A stretch of DNA of 63,642 nt from Clostridiales bacterium DTU053 (GTDB taxonomy: Bacteria; Bacillota; Clostridia; Oscillospirales; Acutalibacteraceae): NCBI GenBank assembly GCA_001512765.1, contig LFSO01000021.1, positions 1 through 63,642 of the forward strand. The letters are read 5' to 3'. The translations under genes were made by a program, and so were the position numbers. Every line of letters begins with the position of its first letter. Position 1 is the first letter of the stretch. Shown piece after piece: positions 6,430 through 15,593 of this stretch. A model generated the notes under the pieces. It was not told the DNA's origin. It searched no databases and saw nothing but the letters and a program-made list of their open reading frames with translations.

Positions 6430-6457
6430 AAGCGGCAGGGCATACGCCCTGCCGCTT
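6430..6457 (-). terminator. Terminator between convergent genes
   Basis: AAGCGGCAGGGC pairs with GCCCTGCCGCTT around a 4-base loop. Read on the minus strand the stem is followed by TTTATTTTAG, so it mainly serves the spoVA side; it may also stop the symporter transcript. Confidence 0.8.
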
Positions 6458-6690: not shown

Positions 6691-7713
6691 CTAGCAGCCG
6701 CTGCGAATCAGCACCGCATGGGCTATTGAGGGTATTGTTTCTCCCTGCTGGGTCAAAGTGGGCGACATCAGCGCGCCCGTGCCCACAAAGAGAACGCTCT
6801 TTAAATTGCCCTTTTCAAGCTCTTTGTAGATATATGAGCAAAGGATAGCAGCCGAGCAGCCGCAGCCCGAGCCGCCCGCGTGGACATCCTGCTTTTCAAG
6901 GTCGAATATCATCATGCCGCAGTCATTGTGAACCTTTGAAATATCCATGTTCTCTCTTGTCAGCATAAGCTCCCTGACAAGGGTGGAGCCTACTTTTCCT
7001 AAGTCGCCTGTGAGAATCAAATCGTAGTCGTCGGCGGTCGTGCCGGTGTCGTGCATAAAGTCAATAATCGTCGTAGCCGCAGCGGGAGCCATAGCAGCGC
7101 CCATGTTTGCGGCGTCTTTTATGCCCAAATCCCTTATGCGACCGAGGAAAACAGCGTCAATATAGGGCGCCCGCTTGGGACCGTTTGCGGCTACAACAGC
7201 AGCGCCCGCTCCCGTAACCGTTCTTTGAGCGGTGGTGCTCCTCTGCGCGCCGTATGCGAGGGGGTATCTGAACTGCTTTTCCGCCGAGCAGAAATGGGAC
7301 GAGGTGGAGGCAACCGCATAGTTTGCGGCATGAGTGTCCGCCATAAGACCCGCCAAGGCAAGTCCCAAAGCCATTGTGGAGCAAGCGCCGAAAAGTCCCA
7401 CAAAGGGAATGTTAAGCTCCCTTATCCCTAAAGTCGAGGCTATCTCCTGGTCCATAAGGTCGCCTGCGAAAACCATATCAATATCAAGGGGACTCAGTCC
7501 CGCCTTGTTAATAGCCCTTTCTATGGCTTCCTTATGAATAACGCTCTCCGCCTTCTCCCATGTCTCCTGACCTACATAATCATCGCTGTGGCAGTTGTCA
7601 AAATCGGGACCGTGGGGACCCTCCGCTTCCTTGGGACCCACAACGGCGGCGGTAGCCAGAATTTTAGGTTTATTCGGTAATTTCAGTACAAATCTTCCCT
7701 GTCTTTGTGCCAT
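6691..7713 (-). CDS. spoVAD: Stage V sporulation protein AD
   Basis: The 340-residue product matches SpoVAD, the thiolase-fold subunit of the SpoVA channel that moves Ca-dipicolinate into the forespore and releases it at germination. Recognisable segments are GPHGPDFD, PLDIDMVFAGDLMDQ, FGACSTMALGLALAGLMAD, CSAEKQFRYPLAYG, LILTGDLGKVGS, HNDCGMMIFD and the Gly/Cys-rich HAGGSGCGCSA. The ATG at 7713 follows AAAGGACTTGAAAGC; an in-frame start 13 codons upstream would run into the end of spoVAC. It lies 14 bp downstream of spoVAC. Confidence 0.95.
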   Translation of the reverse strand: MAQRQGRFVLKLPNKPKILATAAVVGPKEAEGPHGPDFDNCHSDDYVGQETWEKAESVIHKEAIERAINKAGLSPLDIDMVFAGDLMDQEIASTLGIRELNIPFVGLFGACSTMALGLALAGLMADTHAANYAVASTSSHFCSAEKQFRYPLAYGAQRSTTAQRTVTGAGAAVVAANGPKRAPYIDAVFLGRIRDLGIKDAANMGAAMAPAAATTIIDFMHDTGTTADDYDLILTGDLGKVGSTLVRELMLTRENMDISKVHNDCGMMIFDLEKQDVHAGGSGCGCSAAILCSYIYKELEKGNLKSVLFVGTGALMSPTLTQQGETIPSIAHAVLIRSGC

Positions 7714-7727
7714 GCTTTCAAGTCCTT

Positions 7728-8192
7728 TCAAGCGCCTAAAAACATACTGCAAATATAGTAAATTACGCCGTAAAGAGTCGCCGTGCCGCAGCCGTAAACA
7801 ATGACGGGGCCCGCGATTGTGAACATTTTTGCGCCCGTTCCGAGGATTCTTCCCTCCGTCTGATACTCAACGGCGGGGGAGACAACAGCGTTCGCAAAGC
7901 CCGTAATAGGAACCAGAGTGCCCGCGCCTGCGTGCTTTGCTATATCGTCAAACCAGCCGAGTCCCGTCAGCACTGCGGTTATGGCAATAATCGTGGTGGG
8001 AACCAAAGACCTTACCGTCTCCTCATCAATTCCCCACTTTTCATAGATAAAGAAAAGGAATTGACCGAAGGCGCAAATAAGACCCCCTATCAAAAAAGCC
8101 TTAACGGCGTTTTTCAAAATAGGGGAGTTGGGCGAGGCTTTTTCAGCCATCGCCATATATGCCTTATCCTGATGTTGATTGTTTTCAGCCAT
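7728..8192 (-). CDS. spoVAC: Stage V sporulation protein AC
   Basis: This 154-residue polytopic protein carries the SpoVAC hallmarks KAFLIGGLICAFGQ, GLGWFDDIAKHAGAGTLVP, ITGFANAVVSPAVEY and GTGAKMFTIAGPVIVYG. SpoVAC is the mechanosensitive membrane subunit of the SpoVA complex of the spore inner membrane. The ATG at 8192 is 8 bp after AAAGGGG and is preferred to the ATG two codons upstream at 8198. It follows nagB on the same strand with only a hairpin in between, so its promoter is either read-through or overlaps that hairpin. Confidence 0.95.
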   Translation of the reverse strand: MAENNQHQDKAYMAMAEKASPNSPILKNAVKAFLIGGLICAFGQFLFFIYEKWGIDEETVRSLVPTTIIAITAVLTGLGWFDDIAKHAGAGTLVPITGFANAVVSPAVEYQTEGRILGTGAKMFTIAGPVIVYGCGTATLYGVIYYICSMFLGA

Positions 8193-8217
8193 AAGCATAA
8201 CCCCTTTAACAAAAATA

Positions 8218-8278: not shown

Positions 8279-9004
8279 TCAAACAGGGAAAACCTTTGAC
8301 GCTGAGTTTTTGTCAAGATACAGCGTCCAGTTAGGGTGCGTCTTTAAAAGTGTCGCGGGAGTATTGTTGTTTACCTTCTCCGTCAGCGTTTTGTAAACCG
8401 CCTCAGCCTTAACCTCATGGGGAACTGCGGAGATAATCTTTTTGCACTGCAAAATCTGATAGCAGGTCATTGAAACAGCGTGGGTCGGCACATCCTCAAC
8501 GGTGGGGAACCAGCCCTCACGCACCTGCTGACGCTTGCACGCGTCGTCCAGCTTTACAATATGATAAGCCTCTTTAGTGTCAAAATCTGCGGGCGGGTCG
8601 TTAAAGGCAATGTGAGCGTTCTCGCCGATTCCAATAACGCCCAAATCAATCTCAGCCTCAAGCAGCTTTTCTGTCACGAATTTTGTGACCTCCTCGGAGC
8701 CGTCAAGGAAATATGCGTTTTTAAGATTAATCTTTGACGCGAAACGCTCCTTTAAATATTTGCGGAAGCTCGCCTTGTGAGTCTCCTCAATGCCCACATA
8801 TTCGTCAAGATGGAACATCTCGACCTTGCTCCAGTCAACATTGAGCTGAAGAAGAGCCTCGAACATATCAAGCTGAGACGCGCCTGTGGAGAGCACAATT
8901 CTCGCGTTTCCTTTCTCGGCTATCGCGTTATTTATCGTTTCGGCTATGTGCTGAGCCGCTGCCGCGCCCAAAGCCTTGGAGTTTTCGCTGACCACTATCT
9001 TCAT
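8279..9004 (-). CDS. nagB: Glucosamine-6-phosphate deaminase family protein
   Basis: This 241-residue protein is of the NagB/6-phosphogluconolactonase fold; NagB converts glucosamine-6-phosphate to fructose-6-phosphate and ammonia in amino sugar catabolism. Evidence is the phosphate loop LSTGASQ (38-44), MFHLDEYVG (63-71, catalytic Asp at 67) and GIGENAHIAFNDPP (125-138, catalytic His at 131). The Asp of E. coli NagB in this loop is Asn here, as in other Firmicutes NagB proteins, so activity is not ruled out. The segment QQVREGWFPTVEDVPTHA belongs to a NagB-like subgroup whose substrate is less certain. It is last in the run aminotransferase, trpS, GH2-like, nagB. Confidence 0.85.
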   Translation of the reverse strand: MKIVVSENSKALGAAAAQHIAETINNAIAEKGNARIVLSTGASQLDMFEALLQLNVDWSKVEMFHLDEYVGIEETHKASFRKYLKERFASKINLKNAYFLDGSEEVTKFVTEKLLEAEIDLGVIGIGENAHIAFNDPPADFDTKEAYHIVKLDDACKRQQVREGWFPTVEDVPTHAVSMTCYQILQCKKIISAVPHEVKAEAVYKTLTEKVNNNTPATLLKTHPNWTLYLDKNSASKVFPV

Positions 9005-9025: not shown

Positions 9026-11248
9026 TTATTTGCCTGCCTGACGCTGGCGGATTATTGTAACCTTGTCGGTAATTCCGATTTCGTAGTCGCAGCTTGCGAC
9101 AATTGAGTTTTCTCCCTTTGCCAAAACCACATCGTTAAAGATGAATACGCCGTTTTCGGAGTGTAAGGTTTTGCTCTTTTTCTCCTTGCCGTTTACGGTC
9201 AGGCGCAGGTCTTTAAGGTTGGAATAAACTCTTATGCTGCACTTTCTCTTTGAGCGGAAGGAGCCGTTTTCCTCGGCAATGTAAATAAACTTCGATTTTG
9301 ACCACATCGCCTTAATAAGGTAGAAGCTGTCCCTCTTTTGCTGTCTGTCGTAGCTTACAAAGCCGCAGCTTGAAATCTCAATATTCTCCGCATAGCCGTT
9401 GATTGCGGGGGCGGACGCAGTCCTTTCCGTAGCCTCCGCTTTTTCTTCCTCAGCCTTTTCGCTTGCGGCAGCTTCCTCTGGGCTTTCCTCAGCAGGCTCT
9501 GCCTCTGCTTCCTCAGCCTTTTCGCTTTCTTCTGACTCGGCATTGTCGGCAGTTTCCTCGGATTCGGTTTCCTGAGTTTCCTCTGCTTCTGTCTCCTCAG
9601 CGGTTTCTTCTGCGGGAGCTGCGATTTCGGCGGTTTCCTCTGCCTTTGTTTCCTCAGAGGTTTCTTCTGTCGGCTCATCTTCCGCGGGAATATCCTCGGT
9701 TATTTCAAACTCTGTTCCGATTTCACGGGTGCGCTTAGCAAAGTCAAAGAGGGGACCCGCGAAAACGCCCCAGATAAAGCCCCTTTCGTCCGCCGCTTTG
9801 AAGGCGTTCTCCAAAAGGACATTTGCAGACTTTTCGGGGCTGAGCTCTGTAGAGAAGGATACTGAAATCGGCAAATCGGGATTTGCCTCGCTCATAAGCT
9901 CCAAAGTCCTAAGAGCCCTTTCGGCGGAGAACTCGTCCAGCAAATCTATGTCCGCGTTAAACGCGCCCGCGCTCTGCGGGAAAACGGGCGTGTCGGCGTC
10001 AACCTGCTCTGTGAAAACGCAAACCCTCGTCTTGTCCAAAGACCTTGCAAGCCTTGCCAAATCCTCGGCTTGTGCAAATGCCACCGAGCTGTCGCCCGCG
10101 TGCCACTTCGGGCAGTTAATTCCCCACGCCACAATCGACGGATGGTTGTAGTACTGCTTTATAAGCTCAGTTAATTGCTGACGGGCGTTTTTAAAGGCGG
10201 GGGAGTTCTTTCCTATATTGTTTCCGAAGGGGATTTCGAGCCATACGGCTATGCCCTCGCTGTCACAGTAGTCCAGAACGCTCTCATCGGGCGGGAAGCA
10301 GTTGAGCCTAACAGCGTTTGCCCCCAGCTCCTTTAACAGTTGTATCTCTTTCCTAATCTGCTCGTCGGAAGCGGCAATTCCCGTCTTTGCCCTGTCCTGA
10401 TAAAGGGAAATGCCCTTAATCTCTGTCCTTTTGCCGTTAAGATAAAAGCCGCTGCTCTTAATCTCTATATTTCTGATTCCGAAGGGAATGTCCACACGGT
10501 CAAGAATCACGCCGTCACGGATCAGCTGAGCTCTGAGAGTGTAAAGATAAGGCGAAGCGGTGCCGTTCCACAAAGAGGGATTGTGTATCCTCATAATCGC
10601 CTCAGCCTGCTTGGGGTGAGCCGTCGCTGTGCCTATGGCGTTCTCAGCGGAGTCGTAAATCGTAAAGCTGACAACATCGTAGTTAATGGGATTTGAAATA
10701 TTAGCGGCAACAGCCACAAGAGCGTCGGAGCCGGCCATCTTTGTGGAGATGAATACGCCCTTAGAGCCGTCTTCGGTCAGGGCAAAATGGCTCTTGCCCG
10801 ACACTATAAGACTTACATCCCTGTAAATGCCGCCGAAAACCGCGAAATGGGGATTTACAGGGCAGCATTTGCCCCTTTCTGTGCTGTCGGTCAGCATTGT
10901 GATTACATGGTTTCTGCCGGGGGTTACAAAGTCGGTGATTTCAAAGCAGAAGGAGGTAAAGCCGCCCTCATGGGTGCCCACCTTCTTGCCGTCTATGTAA
11001 AGCTCAGCCAAGGGACCCGCTCCCTTGAATTCAAGAAAGAGCCTGTAGCCCGAAAGCTCCAGCGGAACGGGCAGCTCTCTCTGATAGCAGTATCTGCCCC
11101 TTGTGTTGGAGCCCCTGCGCTTTAAGTCGTAAATATTCCAAGTATGGGGAACGGTAACGCTTTCCGCGTTTTCGGGTATGGCGGTTAAATCCTGCGGAAC
11201 CACCATAGAAAAGAACCAGTTGCTGTTAAGCTTTACACTCCGCTTCAT
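9026..11248 (-). CDS. GH2-like (beta-galactosidase/glucuronidase fold) pseudoenzyme with acidic insertion
   Basis: The 740-residue product follows the GH2 plan: sugar-binding N-domain (PHTWN, then EGGFTSFCFEIT), Ig-like domain, and a TIM barrel (IKGISLYQDR, LLKELGANAVRLNCFPPD, IAVWLEIPF). Where GH2 enzymes have the acid/base motif W.xGNE this protein reads AWGINCPKW, with Cys379 in place of Glu; where they have the nucleophile (vsEyG) it reads ISVSFSTE, with Phe465 in place of Glu. A Glu/Ala/Thr-rich stretch (about 518-613) interrupts the conserved stretch between DFAKR and SYDRQQKRDSFYLIKAMWS. A signal peptide is lacking. The ATG at 11248 follows GGAGGG; an in-frame TTG at 11269 precedes that site. 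It is probably a binding or regulatory protein. Confidence 0.8.
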   Translation of the reverse strand: MKRSVKLNSNWFFSMVVPQDLTAIPENAESVTVPHTWNIYDLKRRGSNTRGRYCYQRELPVPLELSGYRLFLEFKGAGPLAELYIDGKKVGTHEGGFTSFCFEITDFVTPGRNHVITMLTDSTERGKCCPVNPHFAVFGGIYRDVSLIVSGKSHFALTEDGSKGVFISTKMAGSDALVAVAANISNPINYDVVSFTIYDSAENAIGTATAHPKQAEAIMRIHNPSLWNGTASPYLYTLRAQLIRDGVILDRVDIPFGIRNIEIKSSGFYLNGKRTEIKGISLYQDRAKTGIAASDEQIRKEIQLLKELGANAVRLNCFPPDESVLDYCDSEGIAVWLEIPFGNNIGKNSPAFKNARQQLTELIKQYYNHPSIVAWGINCPKWHAGDSSVAFAQAEDLARLARSLDKTRVCVFTEQVDADTPVFPQSAGAFNADIDLLDEFSAERALRTLELMSEANPDLPISVSFSTELSPEKSANVLLENAFKAADERGFIWGVFAGPLFDFAKRTREIGTEFEITEDIPAEDEPTEETSEETKAEETAEIAAPAEETAEETEAEETQETESEETADNAESEESEKAEEAEAEPAEESPEEAAASEKAEEEKAEATERTASAPAINGYAENIEISSCGFVSYDRQQKRDSFYLIKAMWSKSKFIYIAEENGSFRSKRKCSIRVYSNLKDLRLTVNGKEKKSKTLHSENGVFIFNDVVLAKGENSIVASCDYEIGITDKVTIIRQRQAGK
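9410..9697 (-). repeat. Low-complexity Glu/Ala/Thr coding repeat
   Basis: Imperfect reiterations of codons for EET, EEA and EAE units (for example AEETAEIAAPAEETAEE) form an acidic tract of about 96 residues inside the GH2-like gene. It is a likely site of replication-slippage length variation. Confidence 0.85.
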
Positions 11249-11272: not shown

Positions 11273-12292
11273 TTATCTGTAGCTTACAAATCCAATCTTT
11301 TTCATAACCTTGTCAAGGGTGCGCCTTGCGCGCTTTTCCGCTCTTTCGGCGCCCTTTTCCATGGATGACAGAATATATGCCTTGTCGTTTATAATTCTGT
11401 CAAACTCCGCTCTGAAGGGTCTAAGTTCTTCGATAACAGCCTCAGCGACAGCAGCCTTAAAGTCGCCGTAGCCCTTGCCGTCGAACTCTTTTTCAATCTC
11501 CTCATAGGAAAGACCCGTGCATGCCGAGTATATGCTCATAAGGTTGCTGATTCCGGGTTTTTCCTCGCTGTAGTAAACCTTGCCCTCAGAGTCGGTGACC
11601 GCGCTCTTAATCTTCTTTAAAATCACATCGGGAGTATCGAGCATCGAAATAAAGCTCTTTGTATTCGGGTCGGTCTTGCTCATCTTCTTAGTGGGCTCCT
11701 GGAGCGACATTACCTTTGCGCCCGCCTTGCCTATAAAGGGAGCGGGGACGGTGAACAAATTGCCGTAAAGGTTGTTCATTCTTGTGGCAATATCCCTTGC
11801 AAGCTCCAAGTGCTGCTTCTGGTCCTCGCCAACGGGGACAAAGTCCGCCTGATAAAGAAGTATATCCGCCGCCATAAGGGTGGGGTAGGAGAACAGACCC
11901 ACATTCACATTCTCAGCGTACTTTTTGGACTTGTCCTTAAACTGAGTCATTCTTGCAGCCTCGCCGAACTGGGTATAGCAGTTCAGAATCCAGCCAAGCT
12001 GACTGTGCTGCGGCACCTGGCTTTGCACAAAAATAATGTTCTTTTCTGGATTAAGACCTAAGGATAAGAGAATAGCGTATATTTCGATTATTCTGCTTTT
12101 TAATACCTTGGGCTCGGTACGAACGGTGATGGAATGTAAATCAGCCGCGCCGAAAAGGCAATCGTAATCCTCAGCCATCTTAGCCCAGTTTTTAAAGGCT
12201 CCGAGATAATTGCCCAATGTGGGTGTGCCGGTGGGCTGAACAAGACTTAAAACAACCTGCTTTTTTTCCGTTACCTGAATATTGCCGTCCAT
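11273..12292 (-). CDS. trpS: Tryptophanyl-tRNA synthetase
   Basis: This 339-residue class I synthetase charges tRNA-Trp. It shows the HIGH-like motif in PTGTPTLGNYLG (20-31), the GAADLHSITV segment, PVGEDQKQHLELARDIA (153-169) and the KMSKS motif as KMSKT (203-207). The length fits bacterial TrpRS. The ATG follows AAAGGACAGGAAA. It starts 23 bp after the aminotransferase and ends 24 bp before the GH2-like gene, so it is probably cotranscribed with both; no T-box is visible in the short spacer. Confidence 0.96.
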   Translation of the reverse strand: MDGNIQVTEKKQVVLSLVQPTGTPTLGNYLGAFKNWAKMAEDYDCLFGAADLHSITVRTEPKVLKSRIIEIYAILLSLGLNPEKNIIFVQSQVPQHSQLGWILNCYTQFGEAARMTQFKDKSKKYAENVNVGLFSYPTLMAADILLYQADFVPVGEDQKQHLELARDIATRMNNLYGNLFTVPAPFIGKAGAKVMSLQEPTKKMSKTDPNTKSFISMLDTPDVILKKIKSAVTDSEGKVYYSEEKPGISNLMSIYSACTGLSYEEIEKEFDGKGYGDFKAAVAEAVIEELRPFRAEFDRIINDKAYILSSMEKGAERAEKRARRTLDKVMKKIGFVSYR

Positions 12293-13653: not shown

Positions 13654-15561
13654 TTACTTTTTCTGCTCATACCAGGTGTTAATTTTTTGCCTGAAGTTTA
13701 TTTTCTCCTTGGGATACAGCGGAACCCTTTCCTTTGTACGGGTTATGCCGAAGCGCATTAGGTCGTCATACAAGGCCTCGCCGGTAGCGGCGGTGTTGTT
13801 GAAGATATTGAACTCGCCCTTTCTAAGGAAGTTTTTATAATATCTAATCTGTATCCTTGAGCACTGAATGCGGTCAAGCTCCTCTTGAGTCTTGGCCATT
13901 GACTCTGCTTTGTCAAACCATTCGTCAATCTTCTTTAAGTCGGATTCGGAGAAGTAAACAATCTCTTCGGGGCTGCTATTGTAATGGATGTGGAAAAGCT
14001 GAGCCCTGTCAACGGCAAAGTCAATGTACCTGCGGATGTACTGATAGCCCTCGCCGTAGTATGCCAGCATAAACTCGTTCATGTGCTTTTCAATATCGGT
14101 ATAGGGGTCCCAAAGGAGCTTTGCCAGCAGATAAGCCTTGAGCTGAGCGAACTCGCCGTTGTTTACCATCTGATAGCAGCCCTGCTCAAAGACGCTCTTT
14201 ACATTATGCTCCGCAAAGAACTGGACATTGGGCTGCAGAACCGCAAAGTTCGGGTAAGGAGTAAGGTAGTGGGAGAAGTTTGTGGTGTAATCCCAAATAT
14301 GAATGTTATCGCATATAGCTGCCCATTCTCTTATGTCGTTGGTTATTCTCTTGCCGGATTTGTCGGGAACGGGGCACTCGTCAAGGGGATGGGAGAAGCA
14401 GCACTCAATGGTGCAAAGCCTTATGACCACATTGTGCCTCGGCTTTGTGATTTTCGGAGCCTTGCGGGTGTAGGTATAAGCAAGGGTGTCGATATATACA
14501 TTCGGGAATTCCTTTTCCACTTCCTCTGCAATAGCGTTTACAAAGCGCAGCAGAGTTCCCGAATGGCTGCCCTCTGCGTCGTCAATGGCTTTGCAGTTCG
14601 GGCACTCGCAGTAGCCGTCCTTGCCGTCATTCTGAGATACGGAAATCACATTAGCGGTGGGGTCGGCTCTCAGCCAGCTCAGAACCGTTTCTGTGGCAAT
14701 CCTTAAAACATCGGGATTTGTAAGGCAAAGCTGAGTTGTCTCTCTTATGCCGTTTGCTGTAAGAGCATAGTATTCGGGGTGCTCATCAAAGTAAACTGAA
14801 GGCGGCACGAGAAAATTGAATGTGTGGACAAAGTGCGGACCGCCGTATTTGATTCCGCCTCCGCCGTATTTGCCCGAAAGGTCAAGGGATACTATGCCGT
14901 TTATCTTGTTCGCCACGCTGAAATCCGCGTCTCTTGCGCAGCTCCAGTATACATCGCGGTTGTAGAAGTACGGAATCTGCTCAATATCTATATCTTTGCG
15001 GACGCTGACTATGTCAAGCTCGGGCACGACTGTAAGGTCTGCGGCGAACCAGCGGCAGCCCAGAGCCTCCTCAAGGAAGGTAAACACGCCGTAAAGCGCG
15101 CCCCTCTTTTCTCCGCCGGCGATTACGAGCTTATCCTCATATGTAAAAATCCTCAGACCTTCGTCGCCCAGCATTTCACGGTCAACGGTAAAGGTATTCT
15201 CACCCTCGCGGTTTGTCTTGCCCACGATAATTTCCTTTTCCTGCTGGGGGGCGGTGTCGTTTACAATGGGGATTTGAACGCCGCTGATTCTCTTTAAATA
15301 ATCCTGAAGAACCTCGGCGGCATATGCTTCGCTCTCTATCGCGTCGCTGCCTTTGACGATTACATACTCGCTTTCCCCGTTCTCAATAAGGAAAAGTCTC
15401 GGAACCGTCATGTCAAGGTCAATCTTAATCTCACCCAAGGTCGGGTCGTATTTGTCGGAGTTTTCGTACTTTTCAAAAACAGAAGGCAATCCCAAAAAGC
15501 TCGAAACTACGGCAAAAACCAGCGCCAAAGCCGCCGTAATTCGCTGTATAAGGTTCTGCAT
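13654..15561 (-). CDS. Membrane-anchored DUF4838 protein (alpha-glucuronidase-like N-domain)
   Basis: The 635-residue product has an N-terminal hydrophobic segment (about 5-25), so it is exported or anchored. Residues about 60-180 resemble the alpha-glucuronidase/GH20-type N-domain (AAEVLQDYLKRISGVQIPIV, EIIVGKTNR, RGALYGVFTFLEEALGCRWF). The DUF4838 domain follows, with QLCLTNPDVLRIA, ISVSQNDGKDGYCECPNC and FVNAIAEEVEKEFPN, then IHIWDYTTNFSHYLTPYPN. Proteins of this type occur in polysaccharide-degrading gut bacteria and planctomycetes; their activity is mostly untested. The ATG at 15561 lies 7 bp after GGAGG and is preferred to the one at 15567. It is monocistronic. Confidence 0.85.
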   Translation of the reverse strand: MQNLIQRITAALALVFAVVSSFLGLPSVFEKYENSDKYDPTLGEIKIDLDMTVPRLFLIENGESEYVIVKGSDAIESEAYAAEVLQDYLKRISGVQIPIVNDTAPQQEKEIIVGKTNREGENTFTVDREMLGDEGLRIFTYEDKLVIAGGEKRGALYGVFTFLEEALGCRWFAADLTVVPELDIVSVRKDIDIEQIPYFYNRDVYWSCARDADFSVANKINGIVSLDLSGKYGGGGIKYGGPHFVHTFNFLVPPSVYFDEHPEYYALTANGIRETTQLCLTNPDVLRIATETVLSWLRADPTANVISVSQNDGKDGYCECPNCKAIDDAEGSHSGTLLRFVNAIAEEVEKEFPNVYIDTLAYTYTRKAPKITKPRHNVVIRLCTIECCFSHPLDECPVPDKSGKRITNDIREWAAICDNIHIWDYTTNFSHYLTPYPNFAVLQPNVQFFAEHNVKSVFEQGCYQMVNNGEFAQLKAYLLAKLLWDPYTDIEKHMNEFMLAYYGEGYQYIRRYIDFAVDRAQLFHIHYNSSPEEIVYFSESDLKKIDEWFDKAESMAKTQEELDRIQCSRIQIRYYKNFLRKGEFNIFNNTAATGEALYDDLMRFGITRTKERVPLYPKEKINFRQKINTWYEQKK

Positions 15562-15593
15562 GCCCATTCCTCCATTTTCTGATTGATAAAGAT

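Follow-up and report, generated by a model that had tools for sequence, protein, structure and literature searches.

A predicted GH2 pseudoenzyme of beta-glucuronidase origin, probably retained for another role, in four genera of one bacterial family

What does a glycosidase do once its catalytic residues are gone, and why would a genome keep it? The question is raised by a gene of Clostridiales bacterium DTU053, located in a stretch of 63,642 nucleotides of contig LFSO01000021.1 that was analysed as a whole (hereafter the window). A preliminary description had taken its product for a cytoplasmic sugar-binding or regulatory protein derived from a beta-galactosidase or glucuronidase. In this work, we considered its domains, its active site, its distribution, the selection acting on it and its gene neighbourhood. 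Our main reading, to which we give a probability of about 0.6, is that this protein (pseudo-GH2) would be a non-catalytic cytoplasmic derivative of a beta-glucuronidase (GUS), retained in a binding or scaffold role through its N-terminal domains, possibly with the neighbouring protein NagB2.

The features discussed below are collected in Table 1. A GGAGG motif lies about 11 bases 5' of the pseudo-GH2 ATG at 11248. Assignment to the GH2 sequence family relies on N-terminal, middle and TIM-barrel domains scoring over their gathering cut-offs, and the three were found in the window protein (Pfam jelly-roll 47.7 bits for a cut-off of 28, Ig-like 36.9 for 23, TIM barrel 71.6 for 21), in agreement with the three-domain plan first described. 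Inspection revealed no N-terminal hydrophobic stretch, so that the reported absence of a signal peptide holds. The best NCBIfam model was NF050095 (beta-glucuronidase LacZ4), with 370.5 bits and a cut-off of 950 that three intact relatives tested also missed (587-592 bits). Domain matches alone would label such genes beta-glucuronidase or beta-galactosidase and thereby inflate the counts of those enzymes.

Table 1 Features of the locus, in window coordinates
Feature	Position	Strand	Basis or remark
trpS, upstream neighbour	11273..12292	-	NCBIfam 351.5 vs cut-off 176.75
pseudo-GH2 gene, 740 aa	9026..11248	-	intact ORF
Domain 1, jelly-roll, residues 1-154	10787..11248	-	Pfam PF02837; boundary approximate
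Domain 2, Ig-like, residues 155-260	10469..10786	-	Pfam PF00703
Degenerate TIM barrel, residues 261-512	9713..10468	-	Pfam PF02836 match at 261-416
Cys317 replacing conserved His (AHYQ)	10298..10300	-	alignment
Cys379-Pro380 replacing Asn-Glu (acid/base)	10109..10114	-	alignment
Phe465 replacing nucleophile Glu	9854..9856	-	by motif
Acidic Glu/Ala-rich insert, residues 513-622	9383..9712	-	g1 members only
DUF4982-like C-terminal domain, residues 623-740	9029..9382	-	Pfam 23.4 bits, just below cut-off 23.9
Ser626 to Cys628 replacing N-x-K motif	9365..9373	-	alignment
NagB2, glucosamine-6-phosphate deaminase-like	8279..9004	-	Glucosamine_iso family
spoVAC-like gene, same operon (inferred)	7728..8198	-	
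spoVAD gene, same operon (inferred)	6691..7752	-	
Terminator-like hairpin after spoVAD	6430..6457	-	pattern match only

The C-terminal part sets the protein apart from its intact relatives. Five of the six that were read full length continue beyond the DUF4982 domain (L028 stops soon after it), and the window protein ends at its DUF4982-like domain without that extension. Between barrel and DUF4982, the members of its genus (g1) carry an insert of about 110 residues with 45 D/E vs 5 K/R, which at the threshold used was the sole acidic stretch of its kind among window ORFs of at least 100 aa. Homologues in genera g9 and g14 have acidic tails, and those of genus g44 neither insert nor tail.

Active-site columns were read from a MAFFT alignment of 47 rows, i.e. 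10 degenerate and 37 intact, the latter representing 35 distinct genes from within the same order, with two entered twice (L010/L091 and L011/L108); 'intact' means intact by motif, from sequence. Fragments (L025, L026, L031), distant paralogues (L002-L005, L032-L034), L013, which duplicates L096, and L024, almost identical to L023, were left out, and L007-L009 were entered as L081, L082 and L084. All 37 intact rows possess His281, His315, Asn375, Glu376, Glu463, Trp509, Asn528 and Lys530 (L014 numbering). The equivalents of the two His in the window protein are Tyr283 and Cys317, the second being the His-to-Cys change already described, the beta-8 Trp has become Gly498, and Ser626 and Cys628 stand in for the N-x-K Asn and Lys that read glucuronate; residues in structural places (Q284, D285, E338, D502) were retained. 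The acid/base column had been assigned to Cys379, which proved to be one position off: no gap is required between W375-G376 and the site, so that Pro380 occupies the Glu column in the ungapped alignment and Cys379 the preceding Asn column. Replacement of the nucleophile Glu by Phe465 was recovered with the ungapped motif (DLPISVSF vs DIPIGCSE); MAFFT places a gap there, and Glu is found in neither case.

According to PMC8748916, GUS are recognised by four residues (E413, E504, N566 and K568 of EcGUS, equal to E395, E476, N547 and K549 of BfGUS). With columns matched via the intact relatives rather than by direct EcGUS alignment, none of the four is found in the window protein (Pro380; gap or Phe465; Ser626; Cys628). 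The window protein likewise lacks the conserved catalytic motifs whose absence from the sequence defines a pseudoenzyme in PMC10211241. Sequencing or assembly error was ruled out, since the same losses recur in G001, an independent genome from this genus (gene L035, 77% identical). Taken together, domains, relatives and residue losses support the cytoplasmic pseudoenzyme of beta-glucuronidase or beta-galactosidase descent that was initially proposed.

To what extent is this gene an isolated case? When 398 family genomes were searched with a profile, ten genes reached at least 756 bits and all other matches 635 bits or less; five of the ten were themselves in the search profile, and the roughly 100 further GH2 matches were judged by score, not residue by residue. 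The ten originate from the window genome G000 and G001 (g1), G009 (g9), G014 (g14) and G044, G388, G200, G430, G340 and G279 (g44), i.e. four genera, with open frames in each. In a 49-row tree, inferred by a quick method and including long branches, a single branch (SH-aLRT 98) separates them from all other rows. In three of the g44 genomes (G388, G340 and G279), a further GH2 gene scored 558-566 bits, inside the intact-group range. At the order level (394 genomes), no further clade-level match was obtained, the best other match being L120 at 579 bits. Viral contigs, scanned to deepen the alignment, yielded only four distinct contigs; in two IMG/VR contigs (L118:2156-6355 and L119:1793-6355) the GH2 domain lies inside a frame of 1399 aa and 1520 aa, respectively, and that of L118 has intact motifs and is preceded by a 706-aa frame resembling, by eye, a phage structural protein.

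All ten members lack the acid/base Glu and the Asn preceding it, the two His, the N-x-K Asn and the beta-8 Trp; the nucleophile Glu is gone from three only (both g1 members and g14) and retained in seven. The loss common to the clade is thus that of the acid/base site and the sugar contacts, and inactivity is less certain for the seven that retain the nucleophile. As judged from sequence, the pseudo-GH2 group is a lineage-restricted set of GH2 pseudoenzymes and not a lone decaying gene.

The many intact relatives within the same bacterial family offer a matched control for where selection went after catalysis was lost. Barrel identity exceeded that of residues 1-260 in 664 of the 666 intact pairs vs 0 of the 45 clade pairs; the two non-conforming intact pairs are probably the duplicate entries (lowest ratio 1.000). 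For an N-terminal identity of 0.35-0.60, mean barrel identity was 0.627 in intact pairs (n = 608) and 0.298 in clade pairs (n = 29), and at a matched N-terminal identity of 0.45-0.46 it was 0.63 and 0.30, respectively. Conserved columns (at least 9 of the 10 clade members, or at least 90% of intact rows) amounted to 36 of 106 in domain 2 of the clade vs 13 of 106 in intact relatives, and to 39 of 255 vs 97 of 255 in the barrel, counts that are descriptive only as group sizes differ. Domain 2 is the most constrained clade domain relative to intact relatives, and its clade-specific residues include P187, N189, Y190, D191, G206, A208, P212, K213 and R244. On these comparisons, the constraint has shifted away from the barrel and now lies in the jelly-roll and Ig-like domains; we regard this inversion, relative to many intact relatives, as the strongest result of the analysis.

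Between G000 and G001, dN/dS was 0.133 overall; by region it was lowest in residues 1-260 (0.073), followed by the barrel (0.115) and the acidic insert (0.209). Five neighbouring genes gave 0.054-0.075, and within g44 the values were 0.05-0.19 in those 12 of the 15 pairs for which dN/dS was computable. These values are rough, dS being about 1-2 and near saturation. Maintenance by selection suggests that pseudo-GH2 performs another job inside the cell.

Which partner might it have? Gaps of 24 bases (trpS to pseudo-GH2) and 21 bases (pseudo-GH2 to the NagB-like gene) separate the first genes of a run continued by spoVAC and spoVAD, which plausibly forms one operon. The gene had been placed between trpS and nagB, inside a tRNA synthetase operon. 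The trpS assignment stands; the downstream protein belongs to the Glucosamine_iso family and scored 125.3 bits with the nagB model TIGR00502, under its curated cut-off of 236.9. As for the operon, trpS adjacency was found in the window only; the loci of G009 and G014 lack it, and the G001 contig stops at this point. A conserved trpS link was consequently rejected. Upstream of the operon, positions 13654-15567 (minus strand) encode a DUF4838 protein whose N-terminal part has GH67-N- and GH20b-like matches and which, by eye, carries an apparent signal peptide.

NagB2 lies directly downstream of pseudo-GH2 in all four loci outside g44 (both g1, g9 and g14), these paired copies being 62-89% identical to that of the window. 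NagB2 belongs to a subfamily apart from the second NagB-type gene in the genome, with which it shares 28-29% identity, and another, distant NagB-type gene is present in each of the ten clade genomes. The DEY and GIGxNxH motifs, which we take to be catalytic, are kept in NagB2 copies both paired and unpaired with pseudo-GH2. NagB2 occurs in 20 of the 398 family genomes, only four of which have pseudo-GH2. Stretches were taken around NagB2 in the other 16 and genes listed for 11 of them; none of these 11 listings contained a gene matching the window pseudo-GH2, and outside the family, NagB2 in five genomes of the order likewise had no pseudo-GH2 neighbour. An amidohydrolase gene adjoins NagB2 in four of the 11 listed loci (L150, L151, L152 and L156), and Gfo/Idh genes occur nearby in L150 and L151. 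All six g44 members have lysA as the next gene (identified by Pfam in L039 and by similarity to L039 in the others) and lack a close NagB2; the lysA of G388 (L110:6422-7718) has an apparently broken frame, due to assembly error or real loss. NagB2 is thus not a universal partner, and an obligate partnership was rejected with only four of its 20 family genomes among the ten that have pseudo-GH2. Its amidohydrolase and Gfo/Idh neighbours would place the NagB2 subfamily in a catabolic pathway of the amino-sugar or a related type.

The spoVAC and spoVAD genes follow in g1 and g14 only; in G009 and throughout g44 (six genomes) spoVAD is carried on a different contig, and spoVA was rejected as a conserved neighbour. 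In G001, a metallophosphoesterase gene (L036:3371-4750), missing at this place in the window, lies between an MFS_2 gene and spoVAD.

According to our main reading, an 'FMN-binding'-type beta-glucuronidase devoid of signal peptide would have lost glycoside hydrolysis and been maintained for a binding or scaffold role. Its interaction surface would lie on the N-terminal domains, above all domain 2 (P187, N189, Y190, D191, P212 and K213), the barrel being retained mostly as a structural core. In three genera the partner could, speculatively, be the co-located NagB2, with its activity or location set by pseudo-GH2. A more specific proposal, which we find doubtful, is that of a regulatory or scaffold subunit binding NagB2 (LysA in g44) via the Ig-like domain and controlling amino-sugar or diaminopimelate flux, perhaps for the cell wall or spore cortex, in view of the spoVAC-spoVAD genes located downstream in two genera. 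The regulatory role envisaged in the preliminary description may apply, on the basis of synteny and the shift in constraint only.

A cytoplasmic sensor that would hold a sugar or glycoside uncut in the old pocket and regulate NagB2 or the operon appears unlikely: it agrees with the retained GH2 fold and with the co-located amino-sugar-type enzyme, but no clade member retains either pocket His, the beta-8 Trp, the NxK Asn or the Asn that precedes the acid/base residue, and within the clade proteins conservation is lowest in the barrel. As the sugar contacts were lost along with the catalytic residues, sugar binding in the old active site, as originally suggested, is not supported and seems unlikely; a sugar site may lie in the jelly-roll domain. 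Slightly less probable still is a new enzyme with a different catalytic site in the barrel, for which Glu415, Asp418 and Asp420 after beta-5 are candidates in the g1 pair (FTEQVDAD and FTEYIDAD) and with which retention of the nucleophile Glu by seven other clade members is compatible; however, conservation of the three residues does not extend to g9, g14 or g44, the barrel evolves fast in the clade and the quality of the models does not allow these residues to be positioned.

We consider it just as improbable that the gene is decaying and bound for loss, held for now by its operon position. Open frames in all ten members, purifying selection in g1 and g44, stronger conservation of domain 2 than intact relatives show and a single clade across four genera argue against decay, although catalytic loss, a relaxed barrel and the rarity of the clade (10 of 398 genomes) would fit it. 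The least probable alternative is a structural or spore-associated protein whose fold would serve as bulk or surface component, together with the acidic insert in g1: spoVAC and spoVAD lie downstream in g1 and g14 and acidic inserts or tails occur in g1, g9 and g14, but spoVAD is on another contig in seven genomes (G009 and six of g44) and g44 members have no acidic part. The shift of constraint seen against the intact relatives makes the role of a dead glycosidase testable, with named residues and a candidate partner.

The closest solved relatives by sequence are the R. gnavus and R. hominis beta-glucuronidases 6mvg, 8ges, 8get and 6mvh, 6mvg and 6mvh being FMN-binding according to their PDB titles. 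Two structures of the window protein were predicted from only six input sequences and were poor (mean pLDDT 49.5 and 56.5); residues after 411-413 were not modelled reliably, so that a new catalytic pair there could have escaped notice. The weak model of residues 1-515 (mean pLDDT 56.5) nevertheless found its best structural matches in this group, with 8get (R. hominis; Z 26.0, rmsd 4.2, 415 residues aligned) and 6mvg (R. gnavus; Z 25.5, rmsd 3.7, 413 residues aligned), i.e. the GH2 fold.

Compared with the FMN-binding gut GUS (R. gnavus 6MVG; R. hominis 6MVH, 8GES, 8GET and 7KGZ; F. prausnitzii 6MVF), the window protein keeps the order of the GH2 domains, DUF4982-like domain included, but has lost NxK, both catalytic Glu and further pocket residues. 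PMC9377255 and PMC8748916 describe a C-terminal domain after DUF4982 as needed for full activity of FMN-binding GUS; the window protein has none, and instead of the extension seen in intact relatives the clade has an acidic insert in g1, an acidic tail in g9 and g14, and neither in g44. Neither FMN-site residues nor a GH2 pseudoenzyme were found in the literature covered, which largely excludes subscription papers. Pseudoenzymes in general are common, and a glycoside hydrolase fold without catalysis, as in pseudo-GH2, is described in reports on beetle polygalacturonases (PMC6549527) and heparanase 2 (PMC12406646), both of which are eukaryotic and belong to other glycoside hydrolase families and contexts.
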